This document shows positions 3,692-18,814 of a stretch of DNA of 29,338 bases, piece after piece. Below the pieces are notes generated by a model. It did not search any database, was not told where the DNA came from, and saw only the letters and a list, made by a program, of their open reading frames with translations. The DNA lies in IMG/VR virus record IMGVR_UViG_3300044629_000232, positions 1 through 29,338 of that record. One strand, 5' to 3'. Within the stretch, counting starts at the first letter, position 1, and each line of letters starts with the position of its first letter. This DNA is from a virus. The translations under genes and the position numbers were made by a program.

Positions 3692-5139
3692 TGGGTTTGT
3701 TCAGCAGGCTGCTGCCGGGACGCAAGCCGCAGAACGTGGCGGTGCCTCTGCACGTCCGTGCGAAGTTCGACGCCGCAGAGATGGGCGACGACCGGCGGCA
3801 CTGGGCGAACGCCGACGCCTTCGCTGCCGATACGGCTCTATCGCCTGAGAAGCGACGCACGATGCGGAATCGTGCCCGCTATGAGCGTGCGAACAACTCG
3901 TATCTCGCTGGCATCTCGGCAACGCTCGCCAACGACTTGATCGGCACCGGACCACGCCTGCAACTCAACAGCGGCGACGTCGAGGCGGATCGCCTGGCGG
4001 AACGTCTCTTCTTCGATTGGTCGTGGCAAGTCGATCTGGCGACGAAGCTGCGGACGATGCGTGAGGCGATTGTGGTGGACGGTGAAGCGTTCGCCATGAT
4101 GATCAGCAACCCTCGCCTGCCGGGCGTGCAACTCGACCTGCGGCTCGTGGAAGCCGAGATGGTGGCGACGCCGGTGCAGTCCGTCACGCCTAGCGTCACC
4201 GTCGATGGCTCGATTGTCGATGGGCTTGAGTTCGACGCCTCGGGCAACGTGCTCGCCTATCAGGTGCTCTCGTACCATCCCGGTGCCAATTACCACGTCA
4301 ACGCACTGAACTACCAGCGGGTGCCAGCGGCACAGATGATCCACTGGTTCCGGCCCATCCGGCCCGGCCAGCATCGTGGCGTTCCTGAAGTGGCACCGGC
4401 TCTCAAGCTGTTCGCCCAGCTTCGCCGCTACACCGAAGCGGTCGTGGCTGCTGCGGAGACTGCCGCCGACTTCGCAGGCTTCCTGCGGACGAACTCGCCT
4501 GCCGCCGAGGTGGACGAAGTTGAAGCGTTCGCAGAGATGCCAATCGAAAAAAGAACGATGGTCACGCTGCCAGACGGCTGGACGTTCGAGCAGCTCAAGG
4601 CAGAGCAGCCGACGACGCAGTTCCCGGCGTTCGTGCGTCAGCTTCTGGGAGAGTTGGGGCGTTGCCTGCAACTGCCTTTCAACGTCGCTGCGTTGGATTC
4701 GTCGTCCTACAACTACGCATCGGGCCGCATGGATCATCAGGTCTATGCCACGACGCAGCGCGTGATGCGTGACGATCTTGAGCGTCGGATGCTCGACCGT
4801 CTGCTTGCGGCGTGGGTGAACGAAGCAACCCTGGCAGGGCTTCTACCTGAAGGCATCCCGCCGTTCAGCGAGTGGGATTGGTCGTGGCAGTGGGACGGCA
4901 AGGAACACGTCGACCCTGCCAAGGAAGCCAATGCCGCCGAGACGAGGCTGCGTACGCACACGACGACTCTGGCGACTGAATACGCCAAGGCTGGCAAGCA
5001 GTGGGATGTCGAACTGCGTCAGCGCGCCGCCGAAGTGGCGTTGATGAAGGAACTCGGACTCTGGGTCGATCTCACGCCGGAAGTGAACTACGGCGGGCAG
5101 CTTGACGAGAACGGAGACCCCGTAGAGGAAAACCAATGA
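3691..5139 (+). CDS. Phage portal protein, lambda family
   Basis: This protein forms the ring at the special capsid vertex through which DNA enters and to which the tail attaches. The 482 aa match the usual size of lambda-type portals. The diagnostic stretch lies at about residues 210-238: a MIHWFRPIRPGQHRGVPEVA segment followed by helices with LKLFAQLRRYTEA, as in the family signature of I-H-x-x-x-x-x-R-P-G-Q-x-R-G-V-P. The N-terminus has the typical YERANNSYLAG stretch, and the clip/stem region is followed by the SSYNYASGR loop. The start overlaps the preceding stop by one base, and the end overlaps the protease-capsid start by four bases (ATGA). No frameshift is seen. Confidence 0.95.
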   Translation: MGLFSRLLPGRKPQNVAVPLHVRAKFDAAEMGDDRRHWANADAFAADTALSPEKRRTMRNRARYERANNSYLAGISATLANDLIGTGPRLQLNSGDVEADRLAERLFFDWSWQVDLATKLRTMREAIVVDGEAFAMMISNPRLPGVQLDLRLVEAEMVATPVQSVTPSVTVDGSIVDGLEFDASGNVLAYQVLSYHPGANYHVNALNYQRVPAAQMIHWFRPIRPGQHRGVPEVAPALKLFAQLRRYTEAVVAAAETAADFAGFLRTNSPAAEVDEVEAFAEMPIEKRTMVTLPDGWTFEQLKAEQPTTQFPAFVRQLLGELGRCLQLPFNVAALDSSSYNYASGRMDHQVYATTQRVMRDDLERRMLDRLLAAWVNEATLAGLLPEGIPPFSEWDWSWQWDGKEHVDPAKEANAAETRLRTHTTTLATEYAKAGKQWDVELRQRAAEVALMKELGLWVDLTPEVNYGGQLDENGDPVEENQ

Positions 5140-6950
5140 ACGCAATCAAGTTGGATTCTGGCGTCACGTTCCTGCAAGCCGCCGAAGGCGATTCGGCACC
5201 GGCTGGCAAGCGTTTTCGCATCGTCGCCTACACGGGCGCACCGATCCGGCAGGGCTGGAGCCGTGAGCCGGTCGTGATCGACATGGCTGGCATGCAGCTG
5301 CCGGCGACTGTGCCGGTGGTGCTCGGGCACGACTACTCGCTTGGCTCGATCCTCGGGCAAGGTCGCCCGTTCATCGAAGCTGGGCAGTTGATCGTTGAAG
5401 GCGAGATCCTCGCTGACAACGACAACGCACGCCAGGTGATGGCACTCGCCGCTGCGGGCTACCAGTTCCAGGCGAGCGTAGGTGCTGACGTTCGTCGGCA
5501 CCAGAAGATCGACGCCGAAGGCGTCACCACCGTCAACGGTCAGGCTCACGTTGGGCCTGTTCGAGTGGTCAAGGCTTCGGCACTCCGAGAGACGTCGTTT
5601 GTGACGCTCGGCGCTGACGGGGCCACGACCGTATCAATCGCAGCCGAAGACGCTGCCGAGGAGGTTCCCATGGCGGATGACGCCAACCAGAAGCCTGCCG
5701 ACGTCGTTGAGACGCCGGTGGAAGTCACGGCGAGCGTCGCCGTGGAGACCAAGCCCGAAGTCGATCACACCGAAGTGATTGCGTCCCTCACGAAGAAAGT
5801 CGAACAGATGGAAAAGCTGATCGCCACCCGCGACGAGCGTCCCTCGGCTCCTGCCGTTCACATGGCACAGCCGACCGCTCGCACGCCCGAAGTCATCGAG
5901 GCAGCGTTCGCCCTTCAGGGCAACCTGCCGAATGTCGAGAAGCAGTACAGCGTCCAGACCCTCGAAGCCGCTGCCAAGATCCAGCGGACGACGAGCCTCG
6001 GCGAAGTGCTCCTCTCGGCTGCCGAGGAAGGCGGCTACACCGGGCCTCGCCGGGTGTCGGCTGCGACGCTGCGTCCGATCCTCGCTGCGGCGTGGGCGAC
6101 CCACAGCATCAGCGGCATCCTGTCCAGCACCGTGAACAAGTTCCTGTTGGCTGGCTTCAACGGCGTCGAGTCCTCGTGGCGGTCGATCTCGTCTGTGCGG
6201 AGCGTGAACGATTTCCGCAGCGTGACGAGCTACCGTCTCAACGGCGGGATGAAGTTCCAGAAGGTCGCCAACGGCGGCGAGATCAAGAACTCTGGCTTCA
6301 GCGATGAGAGCCGGACGATCTCGGCAGAGACCTACGGCATCATGACCAGCGTCACTCGCACTGACCTGATCAACGATGACCTCGGTGCTCTCACTGCTGC
6401 CCCGCAGCGGTTGGGCCGTGGTGGCGCTCTTGCTCTGAACGATCTGTTCTGGGCTTCGTTCCAAGACGATTCGACGTTCTTCACCACGGGTCGTGGTAAC
6501 AAGAAGAACACCGCCGGTGCTCTGTCGCTCGCGAACCTCAAGGCGATTGCCACGATGTTCCGCAAGTTGAAAGACCCCGATGGCAACCCGGTTGCCGTCG
6601 ATCCCCGCGTGCTGCTCGTTCCGGCTGATCTGGAACTCGCGGCGGCTGAGATCATGGGCTCGTCGCTCTTGGTTGGCGGCTCGTCCGCTGGCCCGGATCG
6701 CAACGTGCTCGCCGGTCGGTATCAGGTCGTCTCGACAAGCTACCTGTCGAGCGCCGAGGACTACTACCTGCTTGCGTCGCCGGCTGACCTGCCGGTGATG
6801 GAAGTGGCTTTCCTCAACGGCGTTCAGTCCCCCATCGTTGAAACGGCGGAAGCCAATTTCAACGTCTTGGGTGTCGAGATGCGGGGTTACTTCGACGTCG
6901 GTGTGGCGAAGGCTGAATACCTCGCCGGCGTGAAGGCCGACGCTTCGTGA
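5136..6950 (+). CDS. Fused prohead protease - scaffold - major capsid protein
   Basis: One 604-aa reading frame holds what many phages split into two or three genes. Residues about 1-175 look like a prohead serine protease: GHDYS with His65, FQASVGAD with Ser114, and the RETSFVTLGADG strand region. Residues about 180-245 are rich in Glu, Val, Ala and Lys and contain a coiled-coil-like LTKKVEQMEKLIATRDE, suiting an internal scaffold (delta domain). The rest (about 250-604) looks like a HK97-fold or Mu-gpT-like capsid subunit: SLGEVLLSAAEEGGYTG, RLGRGGALALNDLFW, PRVLLVPADLELAA. The protease is expected to remove the scaffold and itself during maturation. An internal ribosome binding site at residue 179 may supply capsid protein without protease. 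Codon use is the most GC-rich in the window. Confidence 0.88.
   Translation: MNAIKLDSGVTFLQAAEGDSAPAGKRFRIVAYTGAPIRQGWSREPVVIDMAGMQLPATVPVVLGHDYSLGSILGQGRPFIEAGQLIVEGEILADNDNARQVMALAAAGYQFQASVGADVRRHQKIDAEGVTTVNGQAHVGPVRVVKASALRETSFVTLGADGATTVSIAAEDAAEEVPMADDANQKPADVVETPVEVTASVAVETKPEVDHTEVIASLTKKVEQMEKLIATRDERPSAPAVHMAQPTARTPEVIEAAFALQGNLPNVEKQYSVQTLEAAAKIQRTTSLGEVLLSAAEEGGYTGPRRVSAATLRPILAAAWATHSISGILSSTVNKFLLAGFNGVESSWRSISSVRSVNDFRSVTSYRLNGGMKFQKVANGGEIKNSGFSDESRTISAETYGIMTSVTRTDLINDDLGALTAAPQRLGRGGALALNDLFWASFQDDSTFFTTGRGNKKNTAGALSLANLKAIATMFRKLKDPDGNPVAVDPRVLLVPADLELAAAEIMGSSLLVGGSSAGPDRNVLAGRYQVVSTSYLSSAEDYYLLASPADLPVMEVAFLNGVQSPIVETAEANFNVLGVEMRGYFDVGVAKAEYLAGVKADAS
5658..5672 (+). promoter_or_regulatory. 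Internal Shine-Dalgarno and start inside the protease-capsid gene
   Basis: AGGAGGT at 5659-5665 is a full anti-Shine-Dalgarno complement, followed by TCCC and ATG at 5670. The spacing from the AGGAGG core to the ATG is five bases, which is optimal. The ATG is in frame and encodes Met179, exactly between the protease and scaffold segments. In the long reading frame the same bases encode only Glu-Glu-Val-Pro-Met, so nothing about the protein demands this sequence. Confidence 0.65.
5670..6950 (+). CDS. Internally initiated scaffold-major capsid protein
   Basis: Translation from the internal ATG would give a 426-aa protein starting MADDANQKPADVV. It lacks the protease (residues 1-178 of the long form) but keeps the coiled-coil scaffold-like segment and the whole capsid domain. 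This would solve the stoichiometry problem of a fused gene, since hundreds of capsid subunits but few proteases are needed. The closest known analogy is lambda, where scaffold Nu3 starts inside the protease gene C. The evidence is the well-placed AGGAGGT and the domain boundary; production of the shorter form is inferred. Confidence 0.6.
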   Translation: MADDANQKPADVVETPVEVTASVAVETKPEVDHTEVIASLTKKVEQMEKLIATRDERPSAPAVHMAQPTARTPEVIEAAFALQGNLPNVEKQYSVQTLEAAAKIQRTTSLGEVLLSAAEEGGYTGPRRVSAATLRPILAAAWATHSISGILSSTVNKFLLAGFNGVESSWRSISSVRSVNDFRSVTSYRLNGGMKFQKVANGGEIKNSGFSDESRTISAETYGIMTSVTRTDLINDDLGALTAAPQRLGRGGALALNDLFWASFQDDSTFFTTGRGNKKNTAGALSLANLKAIATMFRKLKDPDGNPVAVDPRVLLVPADLELAAAEIMGSSLLVGGSSAGPDRNVLAGRYQVVSTSYLSSAEDYYLLASPADLPVMEVAFLNGVQSPIVETAEANFNVLGVEMRGYFDVGVAKAEYLAGVKADAS

Positions 6951-11700: not shown

Positions 11701-12981
11701 ATGCCCAACAAAATCAAACCCAAGCGCTCCTACACCGCCAATGCCGTTCCGGTTGTCTCTGGCAACACGCCAGACATCGAGCAGCACGAGATGGCGGTGA
11801 ACTGGACCGACGGCAAGCTGTTCACGCGCGACGCGAACAACCAACTAGTTTCGATCACGCTCGGCGGGAGCGGCTCCATCCCGACCGCATCCGCCTCGGT
11901 GCTGGGCGGCGTCAAGGTTGGCTCGGGCCTCACGATCACCGATGGCGTGTTGGCTGCGTCTGGCGGCGGCGAGGACACGGCCCTGCGTGCCCTGTTCGTC
12001 CCGCCTGCTCCGACGAACGTCACTGCGACCGCTGGTAATGCTCAGGTCTCGCTGGCGTGGACTGCGCCGAGCGTGCTTTCCGTGACGCCGATCACGGACT
12101 ATGTCGTTCAGTATTCGTCCAACAGCGGATCGTCGTGGACGACGTTCAGCGACGGCACCTCGACGGCGACTTCAGCGACCGTCACCGGACTGACCAACGG
12201 CACGGCGTATGTCTTCCGCGTGGCGGCGGTGAATGGGGTTGGACAGGGGGCTTACTCGACGGCGTCTAGCAGTGTGACTCCTGGTGTTCCCACTGATCCG
12301 TATTTCTCAAATGTCGCCCTCTTGCTCCACTGCGACGGCAGCAACGGTAGCACGACGTTTACCGACTTGTCGCTGAACGGCCACGCGATCACGCGGTATG
12401 GGAACGCCGCTATTTCGACCACGCAGAGCCGATTTGGCGGCGCATCTCTGTATCTGGACGGCGACGGCGACTATCTGGAAATCCCAGACCACGCCTCGTT
12501 CGACTTCGGGGCTGGCGAGTTCACGATTGAGTTTTGGGCCTTCTGCACGGACCAGTCGACGCCGTATCCGACCTACATCGCCAACGGCACGGCAGGCTTT
12601 GAGTCGGGCTCGTGGTCGATCCGCTATGACAACAGCGGACAACCGCAGCGATTCGGCGTCTTCTGGAATCCGAGCGACCCGCTGCACTCAACGGCCAGCG
12701 CGTACTCCTTTAATCAGTGGCGACACGTCGCCGTCGTGCGTGACGGAAACACGATCCGCACCTATGTCGATGGCGTGCAGCAAGCGTCAACGGCCGTTGA
12801 CGCTGGCAGGACGCTCGACTTGACGCAAGGCGGTCACGGCCGAATCGGGTCGGCGCGATGGGACGGCGGGAACGGGTTCTTGAAGGACTACATCGACTCG
12901 TTCCGAATCACAAAAGGCGTGTGCCGCTATCCAAGCGGCACGACGTTCACCCCGCCAACAGCAGCTTTCCCTGACGCATGA
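11701..12981 (+). CDS. Fibre protein with Fn3 and LamG/concanavalin-like domains
   Basis: The 426 aa start with IKPKRSYTANAVPVVSGNTP and HEMAVNWTDGKLFTRDANN, an N-terminal virion-attachment pattern common to phage receptor-binding proteins. A fibronectin type III domain spans about 101-195 (PPAPTNVTATAGNAQVSLAW, TVTGLTNGTAYVFRVAAVN). A LamG-like jelly roll follows from about 205 to the end (ALLLHCDGSNGSTTFTDLS, ASLYLDGDGDYLEIPDH, FTIEFWA, WRHVAVVRDGN, IRTYVDGVQQ, RIGSARWDG). Such domains bind glycans, so this is a good candidate for host recognition. It starts three bases after the large fibre. No reverse transcriptase or repeat pair of a diversity-generating system is seen. Confidence 0.82.
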   Translation: MPNKIKPKRSYTANAVPVVSGNTPDIEQHEMAVNWTDGKLFTRDANNQLVSITLGGSGSIPTASASVLGGVKVGSGLTITDGVLAASGGGEDTALRALFVPPAPTNVTATAGNAQVSLAWTAPSVLSVTPITDYVVQYSSNSGSSWTTFSDGTSTATSATVTGLTNGTAYVFRVAAVNGVGQGAYSTASSSVTPGVPTDPYFSNVALLLHCDGSNGSTTFTDLSLNGHAITRYGNAAISTTQSRFGGASLYLDGDGDYLEIPDHASFDFGAGEFTIEFWAFCTDQSTPYPTYIANGTAGFESGSWSIRYDNSGQPQRFGVFWNPSDPLHSTASAYSFNQWRHVAVVRDGNTIRTYVDGVQQASTAVDAGRTLDLTQGGHGRIGSARWDGGNGFLKDYIDSFRITKGVCRYPSGTTFTPPTAAFPDA

Positions 12982-14496: not shown

Positions 14497-14823
14497 ATGC
14501 CGGCAGGCACACTTGACATCAAGCTCGGGAAAGACGTGACCATCACGGGCGTTTCTAACGCCCGCACCTGCACCGTCACCAACTCCGCATCGGAAGTGGA
14601 CGTCACGAAGTTTGGCGACACTTCTCGGAAGTTTTCAAAGGCTCTGATTGAGCAGACCATCGAGCTTGAGTGCGTTGACGCTCCGGGTGTCACCATCGGT
14701 GGCACGTTCACCATCAGCGGCACGACGACCGGCAATGCGTCTTACGTCTGCACCAACATCAGCGAGAGCCAGCCTCTCGATGGCGTCGTCACCTACACGG
14801 TCTCGGGATCTCGCACCGTCTAA
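14497..14823 (+). CDS. Tail tube-like protein, paralogue A
   Basis: This 108-aa beta-rich protein begins PAGTLDIKLGKDVTITGV and ends with ISESQPLDGVVTYTVSGSRT. It is the first of three consecutive small paralogues that share an N-terminal LGKD and a C-terminal [IV]SE-x(3)-[VIL]DG-[AV]-x-[TV]-[FY] motif. That combination and the position directly before the tail chaperone gene match major tail proteins, whose beta-barrel stacks into the tube. GAGGG precedes the ATG by a short spacer. Which of the three is the main tube subunit is not clear. Confidence 0.65.
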   Translation: MPAGTLDIKLGKDVTITGVSNARTCTVTNSASEVDVTKFGDTSRKFSKALIEQTIELECVDAPGVTIGGTFTISGTTTGNASYVCTNISESQPLDGVVTYTVSGSRTV

Positions 14824-14852: not shown

Positions 14853-15182
14853 ATGGCTATCACTCTCGGCAAGGACGGCTCTGGCATTCCGCAAGTATCG
14901 GGAGCCGCTATTGAGGGCGTCATCTCGGCGACGTTCACGCAGGAATGCGAAACGGTTGATGTCTCGAATCGCAGCAACGTCGGCGGCTCTGCTGGTGCTC
15001 CTGGCCGCAGGGTCGCTAGGGCCGGCTTCGTGACGAAGACTTGGGAAATCGAGTGCCACGACGCTGACGGGTTGCTCACGTCGCTGAATGCCGCCGGAAC
15101 CAGCTATTCCGTGATGAGCGTGTCCGAGAACATCAGCGTCGATGGGGCTGTGACCTTTAGCGTGACGCTCAAGGAATTTTAA
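14853..15182 (+). CDS. Tail tube-like protein, paralogue B
   Basis: The 109-aa product starts with MAITLGKDGSG and ends VSENISVDGAVTFSVTLKEF. The N-terminal eight residues are identical to paralogue C and the C-terminal motif matches A and C, so the three arose by duplication. A central QECETVDVSNRSNVGG segment fits the first strands of the tail tube barrel, as does TWEIECHDADGLL. Its stop (TAA) is immediately followed by the ATG of the next gene. It could be a second tube component or a tail decoration domain. Confidence 0.65.
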   Translation: MAITLGKDGSGIPQVSGAAIEGVISATFTQECETVDVSNRSNVGGSAGAPGRRVARAGFVTKTWEIECHDADGLLTSLNAAGTSYSVMSVSENISVDGAVTFSVTLKEF

Positions 15183-15545
15183 ATGGCGATCACGCTGGGG
15201 AAGGACTGCTCCATCATGCTCGATGGCGGCTACATCTTCAGCGCTCGCAACGTGACGCTGACAGAGTCGGCTCGCACTATCGACGTGAACCCGTACGGCA
15301 GTCGCTACGCAGGCGTCTACAGCACGGGTTACGAGTGCAGCGTGTCCGTTGAGTTGAACGATGCAGCGGATCTCGGCACGGCGTTTGAGCGGATGCACAC
15401 GGGCGGGACGTTCACCGTCAACGGCGGTGCTGGTGGCTTTTCCTTCTTAGCGGTGATGACCGGCATAAGTGAGACAGACCCGATTGATGGCGTGGCGACG
15501 TTCACGCTTGAAGGCCGGATGACTGATCCTAGATTGGCGAGGTAG
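15183..15545 (+). CDS. Tail tube-like protein, paralogue C
   Basis: The 120-aa product starts MAITLGKDCSIMLDGGY and contains ARNVTLTESARTIDVNPYG, a classic first segment of small major tail proteins (strand, then E-x-A-x-x-x-D-V). It ends ISETDPIDGVATFTLEGRMT. It lies directly before the tail assembly chaperone. Of the three paralogues this one looks most like a tube subunit, because the ESAR-x-x-DV segment, a central YECSVSVELND and the DGVATFTLEG end are all present. There are no intergenic bases between it and paralogue B. Confidence 0.68.
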   Translation: MAITLGKDCSIMLDGGYIFSARNVTLTESARTIDVNPYGSRYAGVYSTGYECSVSVELNDAADLGTAFERMHTGGTFTVNGGAGGFSFLAVMTGISETDPIDGVATFTLEGRMTDPRLAR

Positions 15546-15549
15546 TGGG

Positions 15550-16107
15550 ATGCGTGAGTTCCGTGATGACCAAGGCAGGCCGTGGCAGGTGGCGTTGACG
15601 GTGGCGTCGGCGCTGCGTGTCCGTGACAACGTCACGGTCGATGTCGTGGACGAGGAGAGCGGCGAGCGTAAGGCTGTGCCGTTCGACATGGTGGACGCTG
15701 CGAACATCTCGCAGACGTTCCAGGTTCTTCGCAGCCAGTACGCAAAGATCGGCGAGATCCTCTACGCACTGCTGACCAAGCAGGTCGAAACGAAGGGGCT
15801 GTCGAGGGAAGACTTCCTTGACGGTCTGCGGGGCGATTCGCTGGACGCTGCGACAAAGGCGTTGGAGCAGGAACTTGTCGATTTTTTCCCGCAGCGCCTC
15901 CGCAAGATGATCGGGCTGTTGGCCGCCAAGATGGACGAGGTAGCCAACGAGATGCTCGGCAGAGCGGAGGCGGGTCTGAAGAAGGCGACGGTGGAGAGTC
16001 TCGCAGGAGCATCTGGGACGCAGTCTGGGAAGCCGCTGGAATCCTCGGAGTCCATCCAGGCAAGTGGACCGTCAGACAACTCTTCGCCGCTCGTGACAGC
16101 CGCCTAG
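15550..16107 (+). CDS. Tail assembly chaperone, short (G-like) form
   Basis: The 185-aa protein lies between the tail tube genes and the tape measure, the position of lambda G. Its N-terminus (EFRDDQGRPWQVALTVASAL) and YALLTKQVETKGLSREDF resemble chaperones that coat the tape measure before tube assembly. The C-terminal 40 residues are Ser/Gly/Pro-rich and low complexity. At codons 112-113 the frame crosses T TTT TTC, from which a -1 shift gives a longer product. The ATG follows the previous stop by two bases, with GTAGTGGG upstream. The function is inferred from position, size and the frameshift layout. Confidence 0.72.
   Translation: MREFRDDQGRPWQVALTVASALRVRDNVTVDVVDEESGERKAVPFDMVDAANISQTFQVLRSQYAKIGEILYALLTKQVETKGLSREDFLDGLRGDSLDAATKALEQELVDFFPQRLRKMIGLLAAKMDEVANEMLGRAEAGLKKATVESLAGASGTQSGKPLESSESIQASGPSDNSSPLVTAA
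15864..15888 (+). other. Predicted -1 ribosomal frameshift site
   Basis: The heptamer T TTT TTC (15882-15888) is phased correctly for a -1 slip: zero-frame codons are GAT TTT TTC, and both tRNAs re-pair after sliding to TTT TTT. Upstream, GGAG (15864-15867) and AGGA (15869-15872) are Shine-Dalgarno-like. The latter ends nine bases before the heptamer, about the distance of the dnaX stimulator. I could not fold the downstream RNA. The slip leads into a long frame without any start codon of its own. Confidence 0.68.
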
Positions 16108-16289
16108 AACACGAGTGGTGGCACACGGCGAACATCCTGGCACAGCAAGCGAATCTGAACCGAGACAAGAACTCAGCAAAAGCCGACCCAAGGAAGTTCA
16201 ACCCGTACGCGAAAAAGCCGAAGCCGAGACAGGCGACGCCTGATGATCTGAAACGCCTCTTTGGCAAGGACTGGCAGAAACACGTATGA
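15888..16289 (+). CDS. -1 frame extension of the tail chaperone (GT-like)
   Basis: After the slip, 133 codons remain open to TGA at 16287-16289. Reading the codons one by one I find no ATG, GTG or TTG, so the frame is unlikely to be made except by frameshifting. The first 40 residues are a Gly/Asp/Arg/Gln-rich linker. Then comes a conserved-looking part: SIWDAVWEAAGILGVHPGKW, TVRQLFAARDS, EHEWWHTANILAQQANLNRD, FNPYAKKPKP and DDLKRLFGKDW. The Trp-Thr-Ala and Asn-Pro-Tyr segments fit T-domain proteins of tail chaperones. The fused product would be 246 aa. The stop overlaps the tape measure start (ATGA). In lambda such an extension recruits tail tube subunits. Confidence 0.7.
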   Translation, partial: PAAPPQDDRAVGRQDGRGSQRDARQSGGGSEEGDGGESRRSIWDAVWEAAGILGVHPGKWTVRQLFAARDSRLEHEWWHTANILAQQANLNRDKNSAKADPRKFNPYAKKPKPRQATPDDLKRLFGKDWQKHV

Positions 16290-18814
16290 GCGCAGGAGCA
16301 GTCAGAGCCGGCGGCGTGTTTGTCGAGATCGGTGCCGATCCCAGGAAATTCTTTTCGGCGCTGGCTCGGGTCAATAAGTCGCTCGGCAATATGGGCCGCT
16401 CGCTGGCTTCGGGCGGCGGCAAGCTGGCTGCGGCTGGCATTGGCATGGCGGCACCTATCGCCGCTGCCGTGCGTCAGGGTGCAGCGTTTGAATCGACGCT
16501 GTTGAATATTCGGGCGAGCACTGGTGCGACAACGGCGCAGATCGACCAGATCAAAGCATCGTCGATGGCGATGTCGCAGGCTCTCGGCGTCGGGCCGACA
16601 GAAGCCGCACAGGGCATGCTTGAACTGCTGAAGGCTGGCATGTCGCTTGATGCCGTGCTCGGCGGTGCTGGCAAGACGGCAATGGAGTTTGCCAAGGTCG
16701 GCGAGATGGACGTTGCCCAGGCGGCCGTGGTGATGTCGGACGCCATGAACGTGTTCAAGGTGTCGTCAGATGTCGCCGCCAATGCGTTGTCCTCGGCAGC
16801 GGACGCTTCAAGCACGTCGATTGCTCAGATGTCAGAAGCGTTTTCGATGTCGTCTGCGGTTGCCGGGCTGGCGAACCAGAGCATCGAGGATCTGTCGGCA
16901 ACGCTGGCGATCCTCGCCAACAACGGCGTCAAGGGATCGGACGCAGGCACCAGCGTCAAGACGATGCTGATGAGGCTGATGGCACCGGCTGACGATGCCG
17001 TGGGTGCGTTGGATCAACTCGGGCTGTCAGTCGCCTCGTTCCGTGGTGCTGACGGGCAGATGAAGCCGATGGTGGAAATCATCGGCACGCTCGGTCAGGC
17101 AATGGCTGGTCTCGACCAGACGGCGAAGGACGATCTGTTCCGCCGCATCTTTGGCGCAGATGCCATTCGTGCTGCCGCGATCCTTGCCGATGCTGGAGTG
17201 GAAGGCTTTCAGAGCATGCGGGATGCGATGGCATCCGCTCTGCCGGTGGGCGAAAAGTACAAGATGCTCATGTCGGGCCTGGCTGGCTCCGGTGCCAACG
17301 TCCTCGCGGCGTTACAGCGAATGGCTATTGCCATTACGGACGCCGTGGCACCGGCTCTCGCGGGTGCGTTGCCGTTTATCACTGGCTTCATCGACGGGCT
17401 GACGAAGCTGGCGACGGACAACAAAGAATCCATTGTCTTGTTCGCTCAAGTCGCCGCCGCCGCCGTTGGCATCGGTGCCGCAATGGCGACTGTAGGGTAT
17501 GCGTTGCAGGCGTTGAGCGGCTCTATCGGTCTCGTCTTGAAGGGCTTCGGTCTCTTTTCTGCCCTTGCCAGCCCGGTGCTGCTGGTTGCGGCTGGCATCG
17601 GTGCGGCGGTCTTTGCTCTCTATAAGTTCAAAGACCAGATCGGTGCGGCCCTCGGCCCGGTGGCTCCGCTCGTCCAACAGGCGGCAGGAGCCATCGGCGA
17701 GGGTTTCGGTGCAGCAGTGGCCGACGGCATCGTCGTTCTCGGCGATCTCGCCACGACTGCCACGACAACTTTCAACGGCGTCTACGAAGCCGTCGCCGCT
17801 GGTGACTTGTCCGGTGCGATGGACGTCCTCTGGGCTGGTCTCGTCGCTGGCTGGCTGCGTGGCACTGAAGCCCTGATGTCCTACGTTGATCCGTGGGTGG
17901 CAGCGTTTCAGGACGTGTTCACCGACATCGGCTCGGGCATCTACATCGCGTGGGACAAAATCTACACCGACTCGGCGGCGATTCTGAACACGATGGGTGC
18001 ATGGATCATGGGCTTCTTCGACAACATCGCCAATGGAGTCATGGCGACGTTTGACAACCTCGTGGCTGGCATCCAAATCGCATGGACGAGGGTGCAGGGA
18101 TTCATCACGGGTGCTGAAGACACTGAGCAGCGAGTGCAGGCGATCAAGGACGAGAACGCTGCACGGGCAGAGCAGCGGATGCAGGAGCGACCGGGTATTG
18201 AGAGCCGCACGGCTGATGCTGCCAAGGAAAACGATCAAGCCGAGAAAGACCGTCAGGACCGTGCCAAGGCAATCAAGGAAGACGCACAGGCGACGAAGGA
18301 CGGCAGACAGGCTGCGAACCAGCAGCGAGCGGACGCACGGCGTGCTGCGACGCAGGCTGCCGAGGCCAATCTCGCCAACGTCACGGCAGGACAAGACGAA
18401 GGGCGAAAGGATGCGACCACAGCAGCAGAACTGCTGAAGTCGCTTGGCTCGGCATCGTCGCTTGACGAAATCACGAACATCGGCGCGAGCATGGACGCAC
18501 TGCTTCAGCGTGGCAACGTCAGCGGCGAGATGGAATCGAAGCTGCTCGACGCCTACTACGCCGCCTTTTCTCGTGTCAACGTCGCAAGTGCGGCATCGTC
18601 ATCTTCCGAGAAGGCTGCGACGGCTGGGGCTGGTGCCGCCGGCGCTGACGCTGCGATGAGCAAGAGCGAAGTCGCCGGCACATTCTCAAGCGTCAACCTC
18701 GGCGGTATGGGCTTCGGCTCGTCGCTCGCTGAACGCACGGCAAAGGCTGCGGAAGACACTGCCAAGGGTGTCGGTCAGCTGGTGCAGCAGGGCCAAGCAG
18801 GAGTAGCAGCGTAA
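16286..18814 (+). CDS. Tail tape measure protein, TP901 type
   Basis: The 842-aa protein sets tail length and sits inside the tube. The N-terminal part (about 60-350) matches the TP901 core: AAFESTLLNIRASTGATTAQ, ALGVGPTEAAQGMLELLKAG, a LANNGVKGSDAGTSVKTMLM stretch and FRRIFGADAIRAAAILADAG. Three hydrophobic segments follow at about 338-372, 382-412 and 415-449, as expected for the region that inserts into the host membrane. A highly charged coiled coil occupies about 614-700 (EKDRQDRAKAIKEDAQ). At roughly 1.5 angstrom per residue, the length would correspond to a tail near 125 nm, a family rule rather than a measurement. Confidence 0.95.
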   Translation: MSAGAVRAGGVFVEIGADPRKFFSALARVNKSLGNMGRSLASGGGKLAAAGIGMAAPIAAAVRQGAAFESTLLNIRASTGATTAQIDQIKASSMAMSQALGVGPTEAAQGMLELLKAGMSLDAVLGGAGKTAMEFAKVGEMDVAQAAVVMSDAMNVFKVSSDVAANALSSAADASSTSIAQMSEAFSMSSAVAGLANQSIEDLSATLAILANNGVKGSDAGTSVKTMLMRLMAPADDAVGALDQLGLSVASFRGADGQMKPMVEIIGTLGQAMAGLDQTAKDDLFRRIFGADAIRAAAILADAGVEGFQSMRDAMASALPVGEKYKMLMSGLAGSGANVLAALQRMAIAITDAVAPALAGALPFITGFIDGLTKLATDNKESIVLFAQVAAAAVGIGAAMATVGYALQALSGSIGLVLKGFGLFSALASPVLLVAAGIGAAVFALYKFKDQIGAALGPVAPLVQQAAGAIGEGFGAAVADGIVVLGDLATTATTTFNGVYEAVAAGDLSGAMDVLWAGLVAGWLRGTEALMSYVDPWVAAFQDVFTDIGSGIYIAWDKIYTDSAAILNTMGAWIMGFFDNIANGVMATFDNLVAGIQIAWTRVQGFITGAEDTEQRVQAIKDENAARAEQRMQERPGIESRTADAAKENDQAEKDRQDRAKAIKEDAQATKDGRQAANQQRADARRAATQAAEANLANVTAGQDEGRKDATTAAELLKSLGSASSLDEITNIGASMDALLQRGNVSGEMESKLLDAYYAAFSRVNVASAASSSSEKAATAGAGAAGADAAMSKSEVAGTFSSVNLGGMGFGSSLAERTAKAAEDTAKGVGQLVQQGQAGVAA

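Follow-up and report, generated by a model that had tools for sequence, protein, structure and literature searches.

Within the window, 29,338 nt of a virus record with 61% GC, a reading frame lacking any usual start codon follows a T TTT TTC heptamer inside a tail gene. The question raised by this locus is whether that gene is decoded in two ways, by ribosomes that read through the heptamer and by others that slip back one base on it, and what each of the two proteins would then carry at its C terminus.

The locus and its candidate slip site

The head genes of the window are of the lambda type (terminase large subunit with a gpA endonuclease domain, portal, and capsid). One gene (5136-6950) encodes a 604-aa protease-capsid fusion with a protease-like N-terminal part (phrog_3244, phrog_80) and a major capsid part (PF25209). 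Farther along, 11701-12981 encodes a protein with fibronectin type III and laminin G-like (concanavalin-like) domains, possibly a host-binding structural protein. The locus of interest is flanked by a major tail protein gene upstream and a tape measure gene downstream, as in loci of the lambda G/GT type, with 15550-16107 as the sole ORF between tube and tape measure genes. Its features are as follows.

15183..15545, + strand, major tail (tube) protein gene, upstream (phrog_1407 major tail protein, E 7.5e-6)
15550..16107, + strand, zero-frame gene with ATG start, 185 aa; putative G-like tail assembly chaperone, judged from its position and its homologues in many viral and MAG loci
15869..15872, + strand, Shine-Dalgarno (SD)-like AGGA, 9 nt before the heptamer; possible stimulator, modestly enriched over synonymous recoding
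15882..15888, + strand, candidate slippery heptamer T TTT TTC, in phase; zero-frame codons GAT TTT TTC, residues 111-113
15888..16007, + strand, apparent Gly/Pro/Arg-rich linker in the -1 frame; in the zero frame, the same DNA encodes a conserved segment
15895..15903, + strand, 5' arm of a possible long-range stem, 6 nt 3' of the heptamer (RNAalifold; tentative)
15964..15972, + strand, 3' arm of the same possible stem (RNAalifold and z-score; tentative)
16008..16289, + strand, T-like domain of the -1 frame (93 aa) plus stop codon (identity, synonymous/nonsynonymous counts, Phage_tail_T match)
16286..18814, + strand, tape measure protein gene (PF10145, E 3.6e-36; phrog_1533, E 3.9e-66)

A preliminary description of this DNA had proposed a correctly phased heptamer at 15882-15888, and it does fall as X XXY YYZ in the 185-codon gene 15550-16107. 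The -1 frame, described as open to 16289 without ATG, GTG, or TTG, is open from 15822 and ends in a TGA at 16287-16289, which overlaps the tape measure start as ATGA. The 133 codons reported for the extension are those after the slip (15888-16286), giving a predicted fusion of 246 aa (113 + 133), and the overlap of about 220 bases measures 216 nt from the end of the heptamer to the zero-frame stop, indeed long next to the 15 nt separating heptamer and G stop in lambda. When the zero-frame peptide was kept and codons were drawn by the codon usage of the window, the -1 frame stayed open in 2.6% of 20,000 recodings, with a mean of 3.3 stops, and phased XXXYYYZ sites occurred in the other genes of the window at 0.63 per kb. 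Given these values, an open -1 frame behind a heptamer in a single sequence is suggestive, not decisive; the doubt from chance was removed by conservation of the arrangement among relatives, close (69/69) and distant (85/87).

Conservation of the heptamer and of the open frame

Two viral scans returned 158 loci, from which we obtained 70 unique full-length sequences, 69 of them equal in length, with pairwise nucleotide identities from 71% upward (the close set). The heptamer was invariant in all 69 unique homologues, with zero variation at GAT, TTT, or TTC, whereas both codons were in use at every one of the other invariant upstream positions, five Asp and three Phe (for two of the Asp, a single sequence had the alternative codon). 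All close relatives carried the T domain in the -1 frame, with identities of 85 to 100% over this domain in the best 80 viral relatives. ATG and GTG were absent from the open -1 frame in 69/69, and TTG was found only at or beyond 16137, inside the domain. In six close homologues, a -1-frame TGA touches the 5' side of the heptamer, and two distant relatives (L179 and L201) likewise have a -1-frame stop directly 5' of it; the -1 frame is therefore entered at or after the heptamer. Apart from the adjoining TTTCCC, no further conserved phased XXXYYYZ was found in the overlap.

Distant relatives were found by scanning 84,980 bacterial and archaeal species genomes with the zero-frame alignment (an earlier genome scan using the -1 peptide as query gave no match). 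Seven loci at 28 to 34% identity were recovered in MAGs of Planctomycetota (five loci in four MAGs), Acidobacteria, and Verrucomicrobiae. In all seven, the overlap is long and TTTTTTC sits in an identical ELVDFFP context. A viral scan started from one MAG locus added 80 loci, for a distant total of 87 that are not all independent (69 unique stretches, 67 with the heptamer). At about 30% protein identity, the phased TTTTTTC was kept in 85 of these 87 loci (67 and 18 in two subsets), compared with an expectation from codon usage of 4.6% for GAT TTT TTC. In one of them (L184), G replaces D and Q replaces P around the site and the heptamer was retained, which speaks for selection on the bases. The two loci that lost the heptamer, L224 (CTTCTTC) and L256 (TTTCTTC), kept the T domain open in the -1 frame; just downstream, both carry CCCTTTGGGG (L224:4275-4320 and L256:4275-4320), possibly a replaced slip site.

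Distant overlaps ranged from about 147 to 270 nt. Within them, the -1 frame had no stop in any of the 69 unique sequences, and the unused +1 frame was stopped in 53/69. Starts in the -1 frame appeared only inside the domain in L174, L175, and L177. A tape measure gene followed downstream in six distant relatives, in some after one or more other ORFs. On one 102-kb contig (IMGVR_UViG_3300048599_000897), the chaperone gene occurs twice, at sites separated by about 58 kb (L186 and L193); the record may comprise two prophages or a pair of tail modules.

With regard to elements that could stimulate slippage, the AGGA noted earlier does lie where it had been placed, nine bases upstream, although it is not invariant. 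An SD-like core 6 to 13 nt upstream of the heptamer was present in 88.6% of the close sequences (69% under synonymous recoding) and in 97% of the distant ones (62% under recoding), a modest enrichment. Downstream, the possible stem pairing 15895-15903 with 15964-15972 has almost invariant arms without covariation (RNAalifold, 19 homologues), and folding of 15892-15970 gave z = -2.76. No conserved covarying RNA structure was found downstream of the heptamer and no stem was common to the distant relatives, although single distant sequences do fold after it (L173, z -2.46; L176, z -1.98). Compared with a dnaX-like stimulated site, the locus thus offers a modestly enriched SD-like core upstream and a possible stem without covariation downstream; both are possible stimulators, neither proven.

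Two frames in the shared stretch

Synonymous-site conservation, which the preliminary description had proposed as a check, followed the expected course: zero-frame third-position variability drops after the slip, and the frame then switches. In the close set, entropy up to 15880 was concentrated in the zero-frame third position (about 0.76 to 0.96 bits), fell there to about 0.5 to 0.6 up to 16000, and past that point shifted to the second position of zero-frame codons, equivalent to the third position of -1-frame codons. The periodicity of codons and substitutions switched to the -1 frame near 16000 as well. A shift site near 15995-16005, where the codon-position signal changes and conservation of the -1 peptide begins, was considered and rejected, since no phased slippery site is conserved there, whereas the heptamer is.

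Counts of synonymous/nonsynonymous codon variants in the close set agreed with this division. Between 15888 and 16007, they were 14/67 in the -1 frame and 40/42 in the zero frame; between 16009 and 16107, they were 11/44 in the zero frame and 35/14 in the -1 frame. The T-like domain (16008..16289) gave -1-frame values of 35/14 and 96/68, and beyond about 16008 identity was 0.81 in the zero frame and 0.92 in the -1 frame. In the distant set, the 35 codons that immediately follow the heptamer gave mean pairwise protein identities of 0.55 when read in the zero frame, 0.37 for the -1 frame, and 0.38 for the +1 frame, which is not used. The -1 linker, composed in that set of 25% Gly, 18% Ala, and 12% Pro, is not conserved in sequence, yet it was interrupted in 0/69 distant sequences.

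Judged from these comparisons, the first ca. 40 shared codons (15888-16007) are conserved as protein in the zero frame only, the -1 frame there corresponding to an unconserved linker, and the conserved part of the -1 extension is confined to 16008-16286, which refines the earlier reading. Since the zero frame encodes a conserved segment in the very bases of the unconserved -1 linker, the unshifted product has a C-terminal segment absent from the shifted one. The effect of frameshifting would therefore be to replace one C-terminal part, itself conserved, by another made of linker and T domain, and not simply to add T.

The identity of the two parts was approached through family searches. The 93-aa -1 domain of the window matched Pfam Phage_tail_T (PF06223) at 16.2 bits and E 0.014, below the curated cut-off of 25.9 bits. 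Across diverse -1-frame C-terminal domains, PF06223 was matched in 31/31 at E ≤ 0.1 (best E 3.7e-6), with essentially no other family, so that the database search suggested earlier for the -1 peptide gave a weak answer for the window alone and a uniform one for its relatives. Against seven lambda T proteins, profile comparison yielded no match, for which reason we regard kinship of the -1 domain to Phage_tail_T as probable, not proven. The zero-frame protein had no significant Pfam or PHROG family, and no known chaperone or G family was detected. Structures predicted by AlphaFold for the zero-frame protein and for the -1 frame (pLDDT 49 and 45) were too poor for a fold search, and there were no relevant solved structures. 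A tblastn search of 50,697 phage records returned nothing, whether the queries were the two window proteins or the corresponding pairs (zero frame and -1 frame) from two distant relatives.

Decoding of the gene, alternatives, and known systems

Very probably, then, the gene encodes tail assembly chaperones and is read in two ways, through a programmed -1 slip at T TTT TTC that yields a G-like and a GT-like product. The majority of ribosomes would translate 15550-16107 into a 185-aa G-like protein, and a minority would slip one base back, the Phe tRNAs in the P and A sites re-pairing with TTT and TTT, and continue to 16289 to give a 246-aa GT-like protein. The latter would consist of the same 113 N-terminal residues, a linker of ca. 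40 residues, and the T-like domain. By analogy with lambda, the shared N-terminal residues may form a coat on the tape measure protein, and the T part may serve to recruit the tail tube subunit. As the GT-like protein would leave out the conserved C-terminal segment found in the G-like one, the shift would amount to an exchange of C-terminal parts. What the sequences show directly is the heptamer with its frames, their conservation, coding in both frames, the order of the genes, and the similarity of the -1 domain to a family; we infer that slippage occurs, that it is the minority event, and that both products have these functions. Points that count against this reading are the two loci that keep the T domain after losing the heptamer, the lack of a conserved covarying structure downstream, the failure of the zero-frame protein to match a chaperone family, and the negative profile comparison with lambda T. 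The hidden tail chaperone extension behind T TTT TTC proposed in the preliminary description is supported by the heptamer and open frame in homologues and by the Phage_tail_T similarity; the opposite outcome it had envisaged, a -1 frame unlike any phage protein together with homologues devoid of heptamer and open frame, did not occur.

A different origin of the T-like domain would be a separate gene, translated from a non-canonical start such as ATC at 16011 or by re-initiation after coupled translation. An AGGAG directly precedes this ATC, and some distant relatives (L173, L176, and L179) have an ATG or TTG near the zero-frame stop. However, the AGGAG lies one base from the ATC, which is itself present in only 30/69 sequences, and the -1 frame of 69 homologues has no ATG or GTG, with TTG only inside the domain. 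A separate gene would also leave unexplained the invariant heptamer and a -1 frame open back to it in every unique relative examined, and we consider it very unlikely. Marginally less likely still is that a base is inserted in the mRNA at the T run, since an inserted U at this homopolymer would yield the same -1 reading and the same fusion by transcriptional slippage, with no ribosomal frameshifting. Against it, T6 is shorter than the T runs listed for transcriptional realignment (Tn, n > 8; PMC3711429), and in almost every relative the run is exactly T6, not longer, with C next and the X XXY YYZ phase preserved. As for a pseudogene, an assembly error, or chance, in which a single gene was split or the frame is accidentally open, the 2.6% of synonymous recodings of one sequence that leave it open would lend it some room; recurrence of the arrangement across 69 unique close homologues and 85/87 distant loci, together with purifying selection on the -1 frame, already refutes it, leaving a negligible probability.

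The programmed -1 slip thus favored resembles that of lambda gpG/gpGT (GGGAAAG), where the gpG:gpGT ratio is near 30:1, the G part binds the tape measure, and the T part binds the tube subunit (PMC5009743). Both genes lie between tail tube and tape measure, with a -1 slip at a heptamer, a start-less -1 extension whose T domain resembles Phage_tail_T (PF06223), and an overlap with the tape measure start. In lambda, with its heptamer so close to the G stop, GT is nearly all of G plus T; in the window, the zero frame runs on for 216 nt and, unlike in lambda, the predicted products differ in their C-terminal parts after residue 113, which is the main difference. The zero-frame protein, unlike lambda gpG, also has no detectable similarity to a G family. 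By all comparative tests applied, the gene behaves as a programmed -1 frameshift gene of the lambda G/GT kind, laid out differently, so that the earlier interpretation is essentially right.

Phage P2 E/E' slips at T6G, and its relatives at T7G/T7C, E' reaching 37 nt back into E (PMC3931495). The window shares with it a T-run slippery sequence, a -1 extension without its own ribosome binding site, and the same place in the tail operon, but its run is T6C and its shared stretch is 216 nt rather than 37 nt; family searches did not link the window proteins to P2 E/E' proteins. Tail assembly chaperones of actinobacteriophages have a programmed -1 frameshift at the same gene position with a shorter slip-to-stop distance, the mean being 26 nt in the SEA-PHAGES actinobacteriophage set and 36 nt in that of Xu et al. 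(PMC10885494). The distance in the window is several times these means. Sites farther from the stop are reportedly missed by PRFect (PMC10885494), so that this existing predictor would probably overlook the long-overlap gene.

Lambda-type tail frameshifting would thereby extend to phages whose proteins matched none of the 50,697 phage records. We see an even balance of chances for the broader proposal that, across the lineage, chaperones of viral contigs and of Planctomycetota, Acidobacteria, and Verrucomicrobia MAGs exchange C-terminal parts by frameshifting over about 150 to 270 shared bases. If they do, the zero-frame segment would serve a separate role (self-association or release, for example) from which GT has to be excluded. 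The dual-coding gene set allows a direct test of the need for a G-specific C terminus.

Adjoining the single chaperone gene are three tail-tube-like genes in tandem (14497-14823, 14853-15182, and 15183-15545). They are mutually related paralogues (29 to 34% identity, pairwise E 8e-6 to 2e-14); a match to a major tail protein family was obtained for the third alone.
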